Shown here: piece after piece, positions 43,974 through 51,787 of the stretch
How positions within the stretch are numbered: the first letter of the stretch is position 1
Layout: each line of letters opens with the position of its first letter
Assembly: GCA_025782575.1 (NCBI GenBank)
Contig: JALGYY010000009.1
Span: 62,001-126,000, forward strand
From: a bacterium
Lineage (GTDB): Bacteria; Orphanbacterota; Orphanbacteria; Orphanbacterales; Orphanbacteraceae
Direction: 5' to 3'
DNA: 64,000 bases
The notes under the pieces: generated by a model
Told to the model about the DNA's origin: nothing
The model's database searches: none
Seen by the model: only the letters and a program-made list of their open reading frames with translations
Translations under genes and position numbers: made by a program

Positions 43974-44957
43974 GTGGAAGCCATTGCGAGACAAGAAAAT
44001 ATAGGGGCCGTTCGTCAGACCGCCCTTCCTTCGCTCTATCTGGAACTGACGAAAATGAGGTTGTCGGCGCTCGTCGTGATCACCACCATCGTCGGATTCC
44101 TGATGGGGGGACTTGGGGCCGTCGACTGGGCCCGTCTCCTCTGGACCTCGATCGGAGTGGCGCTCACCGCGGGCGGCGCGAACACGTTTAATCAGTGGAT
44201 GGAAGTCGACCGCGACCGGCTGATGAAACGGACCCGGATCCGGCCGATTCCCTCGAAGGCGCTGACCCGGAGACATGCATTTCTGTTCGGCCTGGTGATC
44301 TCGATCGCCGGCCCCGCCATCCTGCTTGCCCGAGTCAATCTGCTTGCCGCGCTTCTCGCCATCCTGACCTGGCTCATCTATGTGGGGATCTACACACCGC
44401 TAAAGCCGGTTAACTCTCTCTGCACGCTTTTCGGCGCCGTTGTCGGAGCGATCCCGCCTGTCATCGGCTGGGTGGCAGCCTCGGGGAGCATCGGATTCGG
44501 TGCGCTGATTCTCGCGGCCGTGCTTTTTGTCTGGCAGATTCCGCACTTTCTCGCTCTCGCGTGGATCTACCGCGATGAGTACGCTCGCGGCGGTTTTCGT
44601 GTACTCCCGGTAATAGACCCGACCGGGCACTCGACGTTTCGGATGGCCATGCTTTACAGTCTCTGTCTTATACCGGTCGGATTCTCCGGTCTGATTGTCG
44701 GCATGTCCGGATGGCTGTACGGTATCGGAGCACTCCTTCTCGGCGGGGTCATGTTGCTGCTCAGTATCGATCTCTACAGACGAAAAGGGGCATTGCAGGC
44801 GCGCCGCCTCTTCTATGCGAGCCTGATCTATCTCCCCGCGCTTCTCGGACTGATGGTGATCGACAAGGGCCCGGCACTCGAACTCGGGCCGCAGTACGGT
44901 AACGTCGCTACCCGTCATCTCTCCTCCCCCCCCGAGGGACCGGCCTCTTCGCGATGA
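43974..44957 (+). CDS. ctaB: Protohaem IX farnesyltransferase (haem O synthase)
   Basis: CtaB attaches a farnesyl group to haem B to make haem O, the substrate of CtaA. The 327-residue UbiA-family membrane protein has nine predicted segments and the two Asp-rich motifs: NQWMEVDRDRLMKRTRIRP after TM2, and YRDEYARGGFRVLPVIDPTG. The start is GTG 43974 with CAGGAG five bases ahead; there is no earlier Met in frame. Its stop overlaps the next gene (ATGA). Together with the divergent ctaA it supplies haem A to the oxidase encoded about 9 kb away. Confidence 0.93.
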   Translation: MEAIARQENIGAVRQTALPSLYLELTKMRLSALVVITTIVGFLMGGLGAVDWARLLWTSIGVALTAGGANTFNQWMEVDRDRLMKRTRIRPIPSKALTRRHAFLFGLVISIAGPAILLARVNLLAALLAILTWLIYVGIYTPLKPVNSLCTLFGAVVGAIPPVIGWVAASGSIGFGALILAAVLFVWQIPHFLALAWIYRDEYARGGFRVLPVIDPTGHSTFRMAMLYSLCLIPVGFSGLIVGMSGWLYGIGALLLGGVMLLLSIDLYRRKGALQARRLFYASLIYLPALLGLMVIDKGPALELGPQYGNVATRHLSSPPEGPASSR

Positions 44958-46021
44958 CCAGAGATACGTCGGACCCCGCCCGCCCGAAACTCTACTTCGG
45001 CCGATTCGGCTGGCTTCTGACAGCGGCGTTCGTTCTTGTGATGGGGGGCGTCTTCCTTCAACTCGCTCCGCAGATCAGCAAGTCGAGAGCAACCCCTCCA
45101 CCCCCTTTCGATCTTACCGGCGCGCTCATTCCCGTTGACCAGATCGTAAACGCCGGCTTTTCGCGGGACGGAATCCGCGCTCTCGATCATCCCCTTCTTC
45201 TCACCGCCTCGCAGATCGATTCTCTTGCACAGATAAGAAGGAAGAAGTACCTGGTATCAGGGGAACGGGTAATCGGCGTAGCTGTTGGTAATGCCGCCCG
45301 CGCCTATCCGATCAGCGTTCTCAACTGGCACGAAGTGGTAAACGATACATTGGGCGGGGTGCCGATTGCCGTATGCTTTCATCCCCTTTGTGATGCGGTT
45401 ACCGTTTTCGATCGCAGATTCGGGGGAGAGGCACTGACATTCGGCCTGAGCGGGCTTCTTTATAACTCTCACCATCTCCTCTATGACCGGAGGCCGGGCG
45501 AGAACGGCGAAAGTCTCTGGAGTCCGGTACAGCGCCGGGCGGTGGCCGGGCCTGCCGCGAAGAGGGGAGAGTCGATCGACCTTCGGGGGCCGCTTCTCTG
45601 CAGCTGGGGGGAATGGCGGACCAGATACCCTGAAACGACGGTGATCCGGCGTGACCCGATAAGAATGAAACTATACAAACGGAAGCCCTATAACAGTTAC
45701 TACGGCTCCGAACTCTTGAAGTTCCCGGTACGGCCACTCCCTCCGCCCGACAGGCTGCCACTGAAGAGCAGGGTGATCGTCCTCTTCCCCGAAGGCGAGC
45801 CTGCCCCGTTCAGCGTGCCAGCAATCGTGCGAAAAATGGGGGACGCCGGCTTCTGGGAGACGACAGTAGATGGCCGTCCGATCCGTTTTGAAAGCGCCGG
45901 ATGCGATGATTGTATCGCAGCGCGATTTACCGATTCCGATCGCCCGGTCCCCGCTCTCTATTCATTCTGGTTTGCCTGGTATTCCCTGAACCCGGACGAC
46001 GACCTTATCTCGATCGACTGA
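44954..46021 (+). CDS. DUF3179 domain protein, membrane-anchored
   Basis: The 355-residue protein has a single N-terminal membrane segment (WLLTAAFVLVMGGVFLQLAP) and an extracytoplasmic DUF3179 domain. Conserved features visible are GNAARAYPISVLNWHEVVND, CFHPLCDAVTVFDR and FGLSGLLYNSHHLLYDR. The His and Cys residues in these motifs could bind metal or haem, but no function is established for the family. The gene overlaps ctaB by 4 bases, so it is co-expressed with a haem O synthase. A role connected with the oxidase or haem is a guess from position only. Confidence 0.82.
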   Translation: MTRDTSDPARPKLYFGRFGWLLTAAFVLVMGGVFLQLAPQISKSRATPPPPFDLTGALIPVDQIVNAGFSRDGIRALDHPLLLTASQIDSLAQIRRKKYLVSGERVIGVAVGNAARAYPISVLNWHEVVNDTLGGVPIAVCFHPLCDAVTVFDRRFGGEALTFGLSGLLYNSHHLLYDRRPGENGESLWSPVQRRAVAGPAAKRGESIDLRGPLLCSWGEWRTRYPETTVIRRDPIRMKLYKRKPYNSYYGSELLKFPVRPLPPPDRLPLKSRVIVLFPEGEPAPFSVPAIVRKMGDAGFWETTVDGRPIRFESAGCDDCIAARFTDSDRPVPALYSFWFAWYSLNPDDDLISID

Positions 46022-47850: not shown

Positions 47851-47880
47851 AACGCCGGCCAACGAGCGCCGGCCGGCGTT
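47851..47880. terminator. Terminator hairpin between HNH and selenoprotein genes
   Basis: AACGCCGGCC (47851-47860) and GGCCGGCGTT (47871-47880) make a 10-bp stem with a 10-base loop. It lies 23 bases after the selenoprotein stop, followed in the minus direction by TCGTTTTGTCC, so it mainly serves that gene and can also stop HNH transcription. Confidence 0.75.
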
Positions 47881-47903: not shown

Positions 47904-49100
47904 CTATTTGGCGCTTGCGAGGAGCTCCTCGAAGCGTTCGAGCTGACTCTTGTAGTAGTCGCTTTCGGGATCCTCGGCGAGGGCGGCTCGAACGAGTTCG
48001 ACCGCATCCTCACAGGCTCCACGGGTGTTGCAGATTTCGGCGACAGTATCGAGAATCATCGCCTTTTCCTTGCCCGGTTCGGCAAGCTCCACACCCTTAC
48101 GCGCCAACTGCTCCGCCTCTTCCAGATTGATGTTCTGCTCGAAACAGAACCAGGCGAAATTGTTCAGCTGACCCGGCTCATCCATCCAGCCTTCGGGCAG
48201 GTTGGCCCGCTTAATCTTCAGCGCCTTGTCTTTATCTTCTTCGATGTAGAGCGCCTGCTCGATCTCGAGATCGGCGCGCCACTTTCGGACATCCTCATCC
48301 TTCGTGTCTGCTGTTGCCGAAAGAGCCGCGTCGAGAAACCGTTCCTGAAGCTTCGGGTTCTCAGCGCGATGGGCGACACGTGACACGGTATAGGCTGTGA
48401 AAAGCAGCTCAACCGGCCGCGTATTTTCAGAAGCGATCACAGCATCGGCGCTCGCCAGAAACTCATCGAACGAGTACTTGCCGGCACCGTAGGCGTCGGA
48501 AGCCGCATTGAAAATCTCATAGGCAAAGTCGACGCCGTTGTCATCATTCAATTTTTCAGCATTGCGGTAGTAATTCAGCGCCTCTTCATACTCTCCGGTC
48601 GCACCGGCCACCCGGCCCAGAACAGCGGCATCCAGAGATGTGGCGTCAGCTTTGTAGCGCTCCGAACGGTTCTCGAGGGTGATGGGATCGGACAAACCCT
48701 GGCTCGCCGTTTCCATGAATGAGAAGGCATCGTTATAACCGACCCACCTGTCGATCAGGTCTCCCTCGGGGGTGACCATGACGAAGTTGGGATAGCTGTG
48801 TACATCGTATGTTTTTGCTACTTCCGGCCCTTCACCCTTCTCCGCATCGACTTTGAAGAAGACAGGCTGGGCAAGAAAACTTTTCAGTGAGGCATTTTCT
48901 TCCGCTACACGAGCGAAACGTTTACAGGATCCTCACCACTCTGTGTAGAAGTCGATCAGTACAGGGGCGTTTCGTTCAGCGGCCAACCGCTTGGCATCCT
49001 CGAATGATGCAGGGTTTTCCGCGAGGGCTCCTGTAGCGACGAAAAAGCAGGCGAATCCTGCCATTCCGGCTGCCAGGAGCTGTCTCGGCATTCCGATCAT
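47904..49100 (-). CDS. Thioredoxin-fold selenoprotein with C-terminal TPR-like domain (in-frame TGA read as Sec)
   Basis: Reading from ATG 49100 (AAGGAG seven bases ahead) gives a signal peptide (cleavage near TGALA-EN), then a thioredoxin fold: APVLIDFYTEW, TGA, GSCKRFARVAEENASL, PVFFKVDAEKGEG and the cis-Pro loop YDVHSYPNFVMVTPEGD. The TGA (codon 56, 48933-48935) occupies the first Cys of the W-C-G-x-C-K redox motif. The frame is open on both sides for 55 and 342 codons. A SECIS-like hairpin follows (separate entry). The full product is 398 residues; residues about 150-398 are helical and TPR-like (YEEALNYYRNAEKLND, NLEEAEQLARKGVELA). Sec insertion needs selA/B/C/D, which are not in this window. 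A nonsense mutation or base error is the alternative, but its exact placement at the catalytic Cys argues against it. Standard gene calling would start at 48779 and lose the active site. Confidence 0.82.
48900..48935 (-). promoter_or_regulatory. Candidate bacterial SECIS element with its UGA codon
   Basis: After the UGA (48935-48933) come 14 bases, then UUUCGCU (48918-48912), a five-base loop CGUGU and AGCGGAA (48906-48900), forming a 7-bp stem with one G-U pair. The loop has G as its second base and starts 21 bases after UGA. Bacterial SECIS elements are described as having a G in the first two loop positions and a UGA-to-loop distance of about 16-37 bases; this hairpin meets both. Confidence 0.68.
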
Positions 49101-49316
49101 CTTATTCTCCTTCCGGGAACGCTATCAATTTGACTCCGATATGTATGATAGCCGATTTCTGGCTCAGGGGCGAGCCTCACACTCTCTCACGCATTATACT
49201 GTAAAGAAGTCCACCTATGGTTCACTCACCAATGCGGCCATGATGCTCCCCATTTGAGTCGCTCCCCGACAATTCGAAGGTCCCGGAAGTCCTTTCTCGA
49301 ATCCCAGGAGGGTCAA
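49101..49316. other. Divergent promoter region, selenoprotein and cupredoxin genes
   Basis: These 216 bases separate two outward-facing genes and must carry both promoters. No protein-coding frame here is convincing. The ribosome sites at either end (AAGGAG for the minus gene, AGGAGG for the plus gene) are clear, but I see no unambiguous -35/-10 pair. Confidence 0.4.
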
Positions 49317-49754: not shown

Positions 49755-49942
49755 CGAAGGTCGAGGAGGGCCATCTTCCCCCTGTCTTCATATTCCATGA
49801 CTGGAATCGTGTATTTTCCTGAGCAGAATCTCATACTTCTCTATCATCGGAGTCCTGTGCTCCGCATCTCTTGCCGACCTGTGCGATCGATATAATCTCA
49901 GTGATTGGATGTACCATTGACCAGACCCGAAAGGAGTGCTTG

Positions 49943-51787
49943 ATGTACCGACCCGGATGGCTAGGCAAGACCCCGTTTCCAATGGTTCTCGTTCTCGCGT
50001 CCCTCTTCGTCGTGGGATGTGGGGACGACGATCCGACCGGACCGGGGGACGGGGGGGGCGATGGGAATGGCGAAATCGCCACCCGTGATCTTTCGTTCAC
50101 CATGGGTGGGATGGATCCCCATGTGGGGCAACTCCTCGAGATTCGTATCGTAGGCACGGAAGATGGAAAAGTGACCCACGGAAACGAGATGGAAGCCCGC
50201 TTCATTCTCGACCCCCTTCCTTCGGCCGAATATGTGATCGAGGTTCCCGACGGAGTTTCGGAAGGTCGTCACAATCTAGATTTCACGGCTGACCTGAATG
50301 GAAACGGAAGCTACGATCCGCCCCCGGCCGATCACGCCTGGCGGATCTCTCTCGCCGAGAGCGGGGACCTGACTCCGGAGTTCGCCCATAACGTCGACTT
50401 CGTGGACATCGAAAGTCCGTTACCCGGACAGGCGGGTGATTTCATCATGAATCTGACCGGCATGGATCCGCATGTGGGTCAGCTCTTTGAACTCCGCGTG
50501 ATGAACACCGGAACAGGACAGACAGTCGGCCAGTATCGGCTCGGCGCGATCCCCCAGGCCGGCTTCTCTATCATGATCCCGGGGATCATCGAGGACGGGG
50601 AAAGTTACCAGGTCGATTACTACGCCGATCTGAACGGCAGTGGAGGCTACAGTGCGCCGCCGAGCGACCATGCCTGGCGTGATGAGTCCACGGGAGATGC
50701 CGGAGGGCTCACCATCGACTTTGCTCACAACGTAGACTTCACCGATATCGGTTTTGCAAGCAGTGGCGGCGAGATCGCCCCTGAACCGCTGGTGCTCAGG
50801 GATCTCTCGTTTACACTCATGGGGATGGACCCACATGTGGGGCAGCACCTCGATATCCGGATCGTGGGAGCAGAGGACGGACTCCGAAGCCGCATCATCC
50901 TCTATCCACTCCCCTCGGCCGGGTTTGTCGTAAACGTGCCGAATGGTGTTGCCGAAGGCGCTCACAATCTCGACTTCACGGCTGATCTGAATGGAAACGG
51001 AACCTACGATCCGCCCCCGGTTGATCATGCCTGGCGGATTGCTCTCGCCGAAAACGGCGACCTGACTCCGGAGTTCGCCCATAACGTCAACTTCGTCGAT
51101 ATCGAGAATCCACTGCCCATGCAGGCGGGTGACTTCACCATGAATCTGACCGGCATGGATCCTCATGTCGGCCAGCTCTTCGAGCTTCGTGTGATGAACA
51201 CCGGTACCGGCCAGACTGTCGGACAGTATCGGCACGAAGCGATCGTGCAGGCGAACTTTTCCTTTGTGATTCCGGGAATCATTGAGAACGGGGAAAACTA
51301 TCGCGTCGACTACTACGCCGATCTGAATGGCAGCGGAGGCTACGATGCGCCGCCGAGCGATCATGCCTGGCGGGAAGACCTTACGGGAGGGTCGGACGGA
51401 CTCACCATCGATTTCGCCCATAACGTGAATTTCACCGATATCGATTTTGTGAGTAGCGGTGGGGTAATCGAAGAAGATCCGGGGGTTACATTCACTCAGA
51501 TCCAGAATGAGATCCTGACGCCGAGCTGTGTGAACGCGTTCTGCCATCCCGGTGGAGGGGCGCCGATGTCCCTCGCTCCAGGTGCTGCCTGGGGGAACCT
51601 CGTCGACGTGGCCTCCGGCTGGGGAATGGATCGTGTGGAGCCGGGCGATGCCGACAACAGTGCCCTCTATCTCAAGGTGATCGGGACGAGCATCGGATCG
51701 AGGATGCCCCTCGGTCGACCGGCTATCTCATCGGACCAGGCGGAGATGATCCGGGCCTGGATCGAAGCGGGAGCTCTCGACAACTGA
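49943..51787 (+). CDS. Lipoprotein with four-module tandem repeat and C-terminal CxxxxCH cytochrome-like domain
   Basis: The 614-residue protein has a lipobox (LFVVGC, Cys about residue 26) and a Gly/Asp linker. Four modules of about 115 residues then alternate A-B-A-B. Each starts near MDPHVGQ and contains ADLNG(N/S)G(S/T/G)Y followed by PP..DHAW and FAHNV(D/N)F. The C-terminal 100 residues contain PSCVNAFCHPGGGAP, a CxxxxCH motif like atypical haem c sites, and a late RMPLG that could give the Met ligand. The ATG at 49943 has AAAGGAG ahead. The DxNGNGxYDPP motifs resemble calcium-binding loops. Function unknown; an exported haem-binding surface protein is the best description. Confidence 0.78.
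   Translation: MYRPGWLGKTPFPMVLVLASLFVVGCGDDDPTGPGDGGGDGNGEIATRDLSFTMGGMDPHVGQLLEIRIVGTEDGKVTHGNEMEARFILDPLPSAEYVIEVPDGVSEGRHNLDFTADLNGNGSYDPPPADHAWRISLAESGDLTPEFAHNVDFVDIESPLPGQAGDFIMNLTGMDPHVGQLFELRVMNTGTGQTVGQYRLGAIPQAGFSIMIPGIIEDGESYQVDYYADLNGSGGYSAPPSDHAWRDESTGDAGGLTIDFAHNVDFTDIGFASSGGEIAPEPLVLRDLSFTLMGMDPHVGQHLDIRIVGAEDGLRSRIILYPLPSAGFVVNVPNGVAEGAHNLDFTADLNGNGTYDPPPVDHAWRIALAENGDLTPEFAHNVNFVDIENPLPMQAGDFTMNLTGMDPHVGQLFELRVMNTGTGQTVGQYRHEAIVQANFSFVIPGIIENGENYRVDYYADLNGSGGYDAPPSDHAWREDLTGGSDGLTIDFAHNVNFTDIDFVSSGGVIEEDPGVTFTQIQNEILTPSCVNAFCHPGGGAPMSLAPGAAWGNLVDVASGWGMDRVEPGDADNSALYLKVIGTSIGSRMPLGRPAISSDQAEMIRAWIEAGALDN
50087..51464 (+). repeat. Internal tandem duplication of about 0.7 kb
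   Basis: Module pair A-B (50087-50800) is repeated from 50801 to about 51464. The offset is 714 bases at the A modules and 693 at the B modules; the difference is a 21-base (7-codon) insertion in the first A module. Long stretches are near identical, for example around 50281-50340 and 50977-51036. Confidence 0.8.

Follow-up and report, generated by a model that had tools for sequence, protein, structure and literature searches.

A conserved in-frame UGA codon points to a probably exported thioredoxin-TPR selenoprotein subfamily in poorly studied bacterial lineages

Results

An in-frame UGA at the active site of a thioredoxin-TPR gene

A gene on the minus strand of the 64-kb stretch of DNA analyzed here (hereafter the window) very probably encodes a selenocysteine (Sec)-containing oxidoreductase, and comparison with its relatives makes Sec insertion at codon 56 near certain. 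More than 30 relatives share both this codon and the accompanying RNA signal, arguing for a widespread selenoprotein subfamily rather than a sequencing error. This subfamily of probably exported thioredoxin-TPR (Trx-TPR) selenoproteins is apparently uncatalogued.

The frame extends from 49100 to 47904 (398 codons), and its sole internal break is a TGA at 48935-48933. This TGA lies in the context ...DFYTEW-U-GSCK..., at codon 56, which corresponds to the first Cys of a WCGSCK active site. A sequence-only reading of the window had described a frame broken only by TGA at the first Cys of W-C-G-x-C-K, as well as a 7-bp hairpin with loop CGUGU starting 14 nt after the UGA; the coordinates of the frame proved exact, and the hairpin was found at 48918-48900. 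As that reading had expected of standard annotation, mechanical ORF calling reports nothing of the gene except a 291-aa ORF from 48779, a fragment that lacks the active site. The features of the locus, all on the minus strand, are as follows.

47904-49100, minus strand: complete predicted selenoprotein gene, UGA as Sec56, TAG stop (sequence; full-length homologues)
49107-49114, minus strand: Shine-Dalgarno-like GGAAGGAG, upstream of the ATG (read from the sequence)
49100, minus strand: start ATG (sequence)
49020-49100, minus strand: signal-peptide-like N-terminus, residues 1-27, ending ...GALA before EN (by inspection)
48687-49019, minus strand: thioredoxin domain, about residues 28-138 (Pfam, AlphaFold, fold matches)
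48933-48935, minus strand: UGA codon, predicted Sec at residue 56, the leading redox position of UxxC (alignment)
48924-48926, minus strand: codon for the putative resolving Cys59 of UGSC (no variation across the 37 aligned sequences)
48900-48918, minus strand: candidate bacterial SECIS hairpin UUUCGCU-CGUGU-AGCGGAA (sequence; comparison of relatives)
47907-48686, minus strand: helical TPR-like domain at the C-terminus, from about residue 139 to 398 (Pfam, AlphaFold, fold matches)
47906-47904, minus strand: TAG stop (sequence)
47851-47880, minus strand: Rho-independent-terminator-like stem of 13 pairs directly 3' of the stop (pattern match)

A codon-usage scan of the window placed this TGA at rank 11 among 151 read-through candidates. 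Folded alone, the window hairpin reached -6.2 kcal/mol, with a z of about 0 relative to shuffles, and all seven of its pairs were retained in 3.7% of synonymous resamplings of the window gene. Since codon usage and a single hairpin are weak, the case rests on the genome and on the relatives, and is comparative rather than single-sequence.

Sec machinery and other UGA-containing genes in the genome

The genome assembly to which the window belongs comprises 4.88 Mb in 49 contigs and is 95% complete. The sequence-only reading had staked its Sec proposal on the presence of sel genes in this genome, and all were recovered above their cut-offs: SelA (524.6 bits), SelB (378.6 bits), SelD (379.1 bits) and tRNA-Sec (72.7 bits), the last with anticodon tca as assigned by ARAGORN. 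The selD frame (G000:C46:271946-272869; L083:1501-2424) holds one in-frame TGA, KAGUAAKH, a known Sec position. At least three AhpC/TSA-superfamily genes of the same genome likewise contain one in-frame TGA each, and are probable further selenoprotein genes judging from their motifs, which are those of known Sec families.

G000 C46 (L186): in-frame-TGA redoxin gene, TPGUTKEAC, peroxiredoxin
G000 C13 (L184): in-frame-TGA redoxin gene, WATWUSGC, TlpA-like
G000 C19 (L185): in-frame-TGA redoxin gene, GSYTUPPF, deiodinase-like

The presence of tRNA-Sec, SelA, SelB and SelD, together with these other UGA-containing redoxin genes, indicates that the organism decodes UGA as Sec. Homologues with Cys at the corresponding site mean that any Cys-inserting suppression would serve too, which speaks for a different explanation, namely a genome-wide reassignment of UGA (to Cys, Trp or Gly) or its read-through without Sec. 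However, among the 37 long ORFs of the window, 20 have TGA as their stop codon, indicating that UGA is an ordinary stop here and bearing out the earlier claim that it is not reassigned genome-wide. The tca tRNA-Sec, the complete sel gene set and constraint on the SECIS-like hairpin likewise stand against reassignment, to which we attach almost no probability.

Across the lineages that carry the Sec gene, SelA was found in 74 of 80 genomes. A selA match was absent in three Sec-form genomes (G005, G098 and G148), all of them fragmented and at most 90% complete. Co-occurrence with SelA offered no useful contrast, since selA is likewise found in Cys-only genomes from these lineages. Separately, the window encodes at 44954-46018 (plus strand) a DUF3179 protein with CFHPLCDAV at the motif region; some members of the DUF3179 family are known to contain Sec.

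Conservation of the UGA codon among relatives

An initial search returned six other full-length homologues, each with exactly one TGA, along with Cys paralogues. All seven UGAs of this set share one alignment column, at which three paralogues have Cys; thus, residue 56, the position at which the sequence-only reading had suggested looking for Cys in homologues, is exactly the column occupied by UGA or Cys. Wider searches of the window's own group and two other groups raised the number of UGA-form loci to 34, the window's own included, with G430 and G104 extra. At the level of whole genomes, at least 36 UGA-form homologues were found in four separate lineages, where the groups of the window, G072 and G031 were searched as separate phyla and G430 represents yet another family. 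Other homologues have Cys at the Sec column, and one has Ser.

A lone TGA in one assembly could be a mutation or an error, and codon usage does not discriminate here, such that the TGA might be regarded as a broken Cys codon, the mark of a pseudogene, a nonsense mutation or a sequencing error. However, the same UGA is present in more than 30 independent genomes, and the 340 codons downstream of it are conserved across homologues. These include G103 and G430, UGA-form homologues whose assemblies are each a single contig, rendering assembly error untenable. Constraint on synonymous sites of the hairpin, described below, likewise opposes a broken codon. The conserved UGA and hairpin already refute that explanation, and the probability we leave to it is negligible.

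The tree of homologues, which is unrooted, requires at least two changes between Sec and Cys. Natural Sec/Cys pairs occur even inside one genome: that of the window holds, besides the Sec copy, a full-length Cys paralogue (KCGPC) at G000:C2:623042-624217 (L086). Such pairs allow the benefit of selenium to an exported oxidoreductase to be tested. The homologue with Ser at the first redox residue (G101:C282:6021-7202; L108) reads WSYSCK, which resembles the SxxC of E. coli CnoX. A genome-contig search returned thioredoxin-domain relatives only, mostly from Bacteroidota and none of them close.

A constrained hairpin downstream of the UGA

The window hairpin consists of seven pairs and a 5-nt loop, CGUGU, located 21 nt after the UGA. 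Its six inner stem pairs are kept in all 34 aligned Sec genes, and the Arg codon that forms the loop is CGT (CGU) in 33 of the 34 and CGG in one. CGT accounts for 97 of 724 Arg codons in the Sec genes, and 33 of those 97 lie at the hairpin loop site. When synonymous codons were resampled with each gene's own codon usage, all six inner pairs were obtained in a mean of 5.3 and a maximum of 13 of the 34 genes, and for the first seven sequences, in which three pairs are altered on both sides, only 1 of 500 shuffles reached the covariation score; the sequences are related and hence not independent, and none of these figures is a strict probability. The element that had been proposed as a SECIS is accordingly conserved across the 34 Sec genes beyond what the protein sequence demands.

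As given in PMC13188914, the bSECIS model has a stem of 4-16 bp, a loop of 3-9 nt located 16-37 nt after the UGA, and a G within the first two loop bases; the window hairpin agrees with it in stem, loop size, G position and spacing. With its -6.2 kcal/mol the window element misses the bSECIS value of -7.5 kcal/mol, at or below which many homologue hairpins lie, this value being a search filter for which the folded region may differ and not a biological definition. The same source states that some SECIS elements violate the model (PMC13188914). An Rfam scan of the window gave no match.

Domains, fold and probable export

Pfam models PF00085/PF13899 matched the window protein over cut-off, and across the family alignment Pfam identified a thioredoxin domain in each of the 37 proteins, with TPR matches in the majority. 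AlphaFold (m55c47f2d09e0), run on the family alignment, gave a mean pLDDT of 93.4 and a predicted model with a thioredoxin fold at residues 28-138 and a TPR-like solenoid of about twelve helices at residues 139-398. The thioredoxin domain superposed on DsbH 2ju5 (Z 14.6, rmsd 1.9, 107 aligned) and on 2kuc (Z 14.7, rmsd 2.4, 112 aligned). C59, P104 and several residues of the TPR domain are invariant in the 37-member alignment. The fold, the (C/U)xxC motif and the conserved opposite proline assign the protein to the thioredoxin superfamily; it scored 51 bits against the TIGR01068 thioredoxin equivalog, below the cut-off of 96.8, and we therefore regard it as a superfamily member and not a classical thioredoxin. 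Of the periplasmic Sec-thioredoxin fused to a TPR-like domain that the sequence-only reading had put forward, the architecture is borne out by Pfam and AlphaFold, while the periplasm comes only from the signal-peptide-like N-terminus, which, by inspection, suggests that the protein is probably exported. Two homologues have lipobox-like N-termini.

Decoding of UGA as Sec competes with termination in bacteria, and an ORF from 48779 exists. The locus might accordingly give two products, either through a regulated stop that yields a short secreted peptide, with full-length protein only if selenium is plentiful, or through an internal start at 48779 that yields a TPR protein. However, the stretch from the UGA to 48779 is conserved as a thioredoxin fold in all full-length homologues, and no sign of an internal ribosome site was found; we consider a dual product very improbable.

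In the window's own genome and those of its family, proteins were observed that share only the C-terminal TPR segment (for example, G000:C35:51244-51522). The shared segment corresponds to about residues 300-391 of the query at about 40% identity, which suggests that this module may be reused in other proteins.

Discussion

Relation to known thioredoxin-domain proteins

The selenoprotein interpretation of the sequence-only reading is supported by the findings above. According to PMC13188914, UxxC selenoproteins of the thioredoxin (PF00085) and thiol:disulfide interchange (PF13098) families have long been known. The window protein has in common with them its fold, the UxxC site and bacterial decoding of UGA with a SECIS, but adds a C-terminal TPR region of about 260 residues and an apparent export signal. 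Its thioredoxin domain matches the DsbD C-terminal domain (2fwe) and DsbH (2ju5) by sequence profile and fold, whereas the protein as a whole is without a membrane-domain fusion and carries TPR and Sec. The thioredoxin-domain selenoproteins TsoB (rhodanese/DsbD-like, NF045694) and Trx7/PDZ (NF041199) gave only weak matches, confined to the thioredoxin domain, TsoB scoring 27.9 bits against a cut-off of 805, and Pfam detected neither a rhodanese nor a PDZ domain in the window protein. The UGSC selenoprotein family (NF041046) was not among the NCBIfam matches, and the shared UGSC string is thus coincidental. None of the NCBIfam models that match the window protein reaches its cut-off. A Trx-TPR selenoprotein is absent from the review table of PMC13188914, as far as its accessible part extends, and from the deep-Sep paper, and none emerged from literature searches conducted mostly outside subscription papers.

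The closest counterpart in architecture is CnoX/YbbN (3qou; PMC8129009), in which an N-terminal thioredoxin domain is likewise joined to C-terminal TPR helices. The window protein might therefore be a Sec-containing, periplasmic CnoX-like chaperedoxin that combines a TPR holdase with redox repair of exported proteins. YbbN/CnoX 3qou ranked second in Foldseek (E 7.2e-6), and the CxxC of Caulobacter CnoX is active (PMC8129009). In contrast, superposition on the whole of 3qou was poor (TMq 0.21, rmsd 21.9), indicating that the domain arrangement differs from that of CnoX, and the window protein has an apparent export signal whereas CnoX passes clients to cytoplasmic GroEL. It further differs from the Ser/Cys CnoX/YbbN proteins in its Sec and its longer TPR region. 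In view of the poor two-domain superposition and the cytoplasmic GroEL role of CnoX, we did not file the selenoprotein as CnoX, and consider a CnoX-like function possible but on balance unlikely. Rather doubtful, too, is the broader idea of a selenocysteine-based periplasmic chaperedoxin family that would couple client holding to selenol redox repair in several uncultured phyla, with Sec prevailing and the Cys forms derived.

Proposed mechanism and genomic neighborhood

On the preferred interpretation as an exported Sec oxidoreductase, SelB and Sec-tRNA would read the UGA of codon 56 as Sec, guided by the hairpin 14 nt downstream. Sec56-Gly-Ser-Cys59 would form the redox center of the thioredoxin domain, a role suggested by motif and fold. 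The selenolate of Sec56 may attack a client disulfide or oxidized thiol, and Cys59 would then resolve it. The C-terminal TPR domain may present or hold client proteins; client holding is a tentative proposal, to which we give slightly less than an even chance. Elsewhere, the genome encodes a homologue of DsbD whose thioredoxin domain is of the Cys form (WCAACQ), and a DsbD-type membrane reductase of this kind could recycle the selenoprotein by reducing it. DsbD as the electron donor is about equally likely to be right or wrong.

Comparison of the window with 26 loci identified no conserved operon partner, and the client and the electron donor are therefore guesses. The largest cluster of neighbors consists of what appear to be shadow ORFs opposite the selenoprotein gene. 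The sole recurrent real neighbor, a gene for an amidohydrolase-like lipoprotein, occurs at eight loci and is absent at that of the window. In the window, the selenoprotein gene has a plastocyanin-like gene, divergently oriented, and a cluster for cytochrome oxidase in its vicinity. These neighbors would suit a periplasmic reductase dedicated to a single pathway, for example the maturation of cytochrome c or the assembly of copper proteins, in which the TPR domain docks one partner. Among the fold neighbors, moreover, is 3f9u, the C-terminal domain of a protein related to cytochrome c biogenesis. However, the plastocyanin-like and cytochrome oxidase neighbors are not conserved at homologous loci, and we judge this more specialized role to be fairly unlikely.

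Irrespective of its clients, the probably exported oxidoreductase joins a Sec thioredoxin to a repeat domain of substrate-binding type, in a subfamily that sits in poorly studied lineages with selA in nearly every genome. As a separate observation, the window encodes at 49871-51784 (plus strand) a protein with repeated segments, in which the motif MDPHVGQ is present in four copies.
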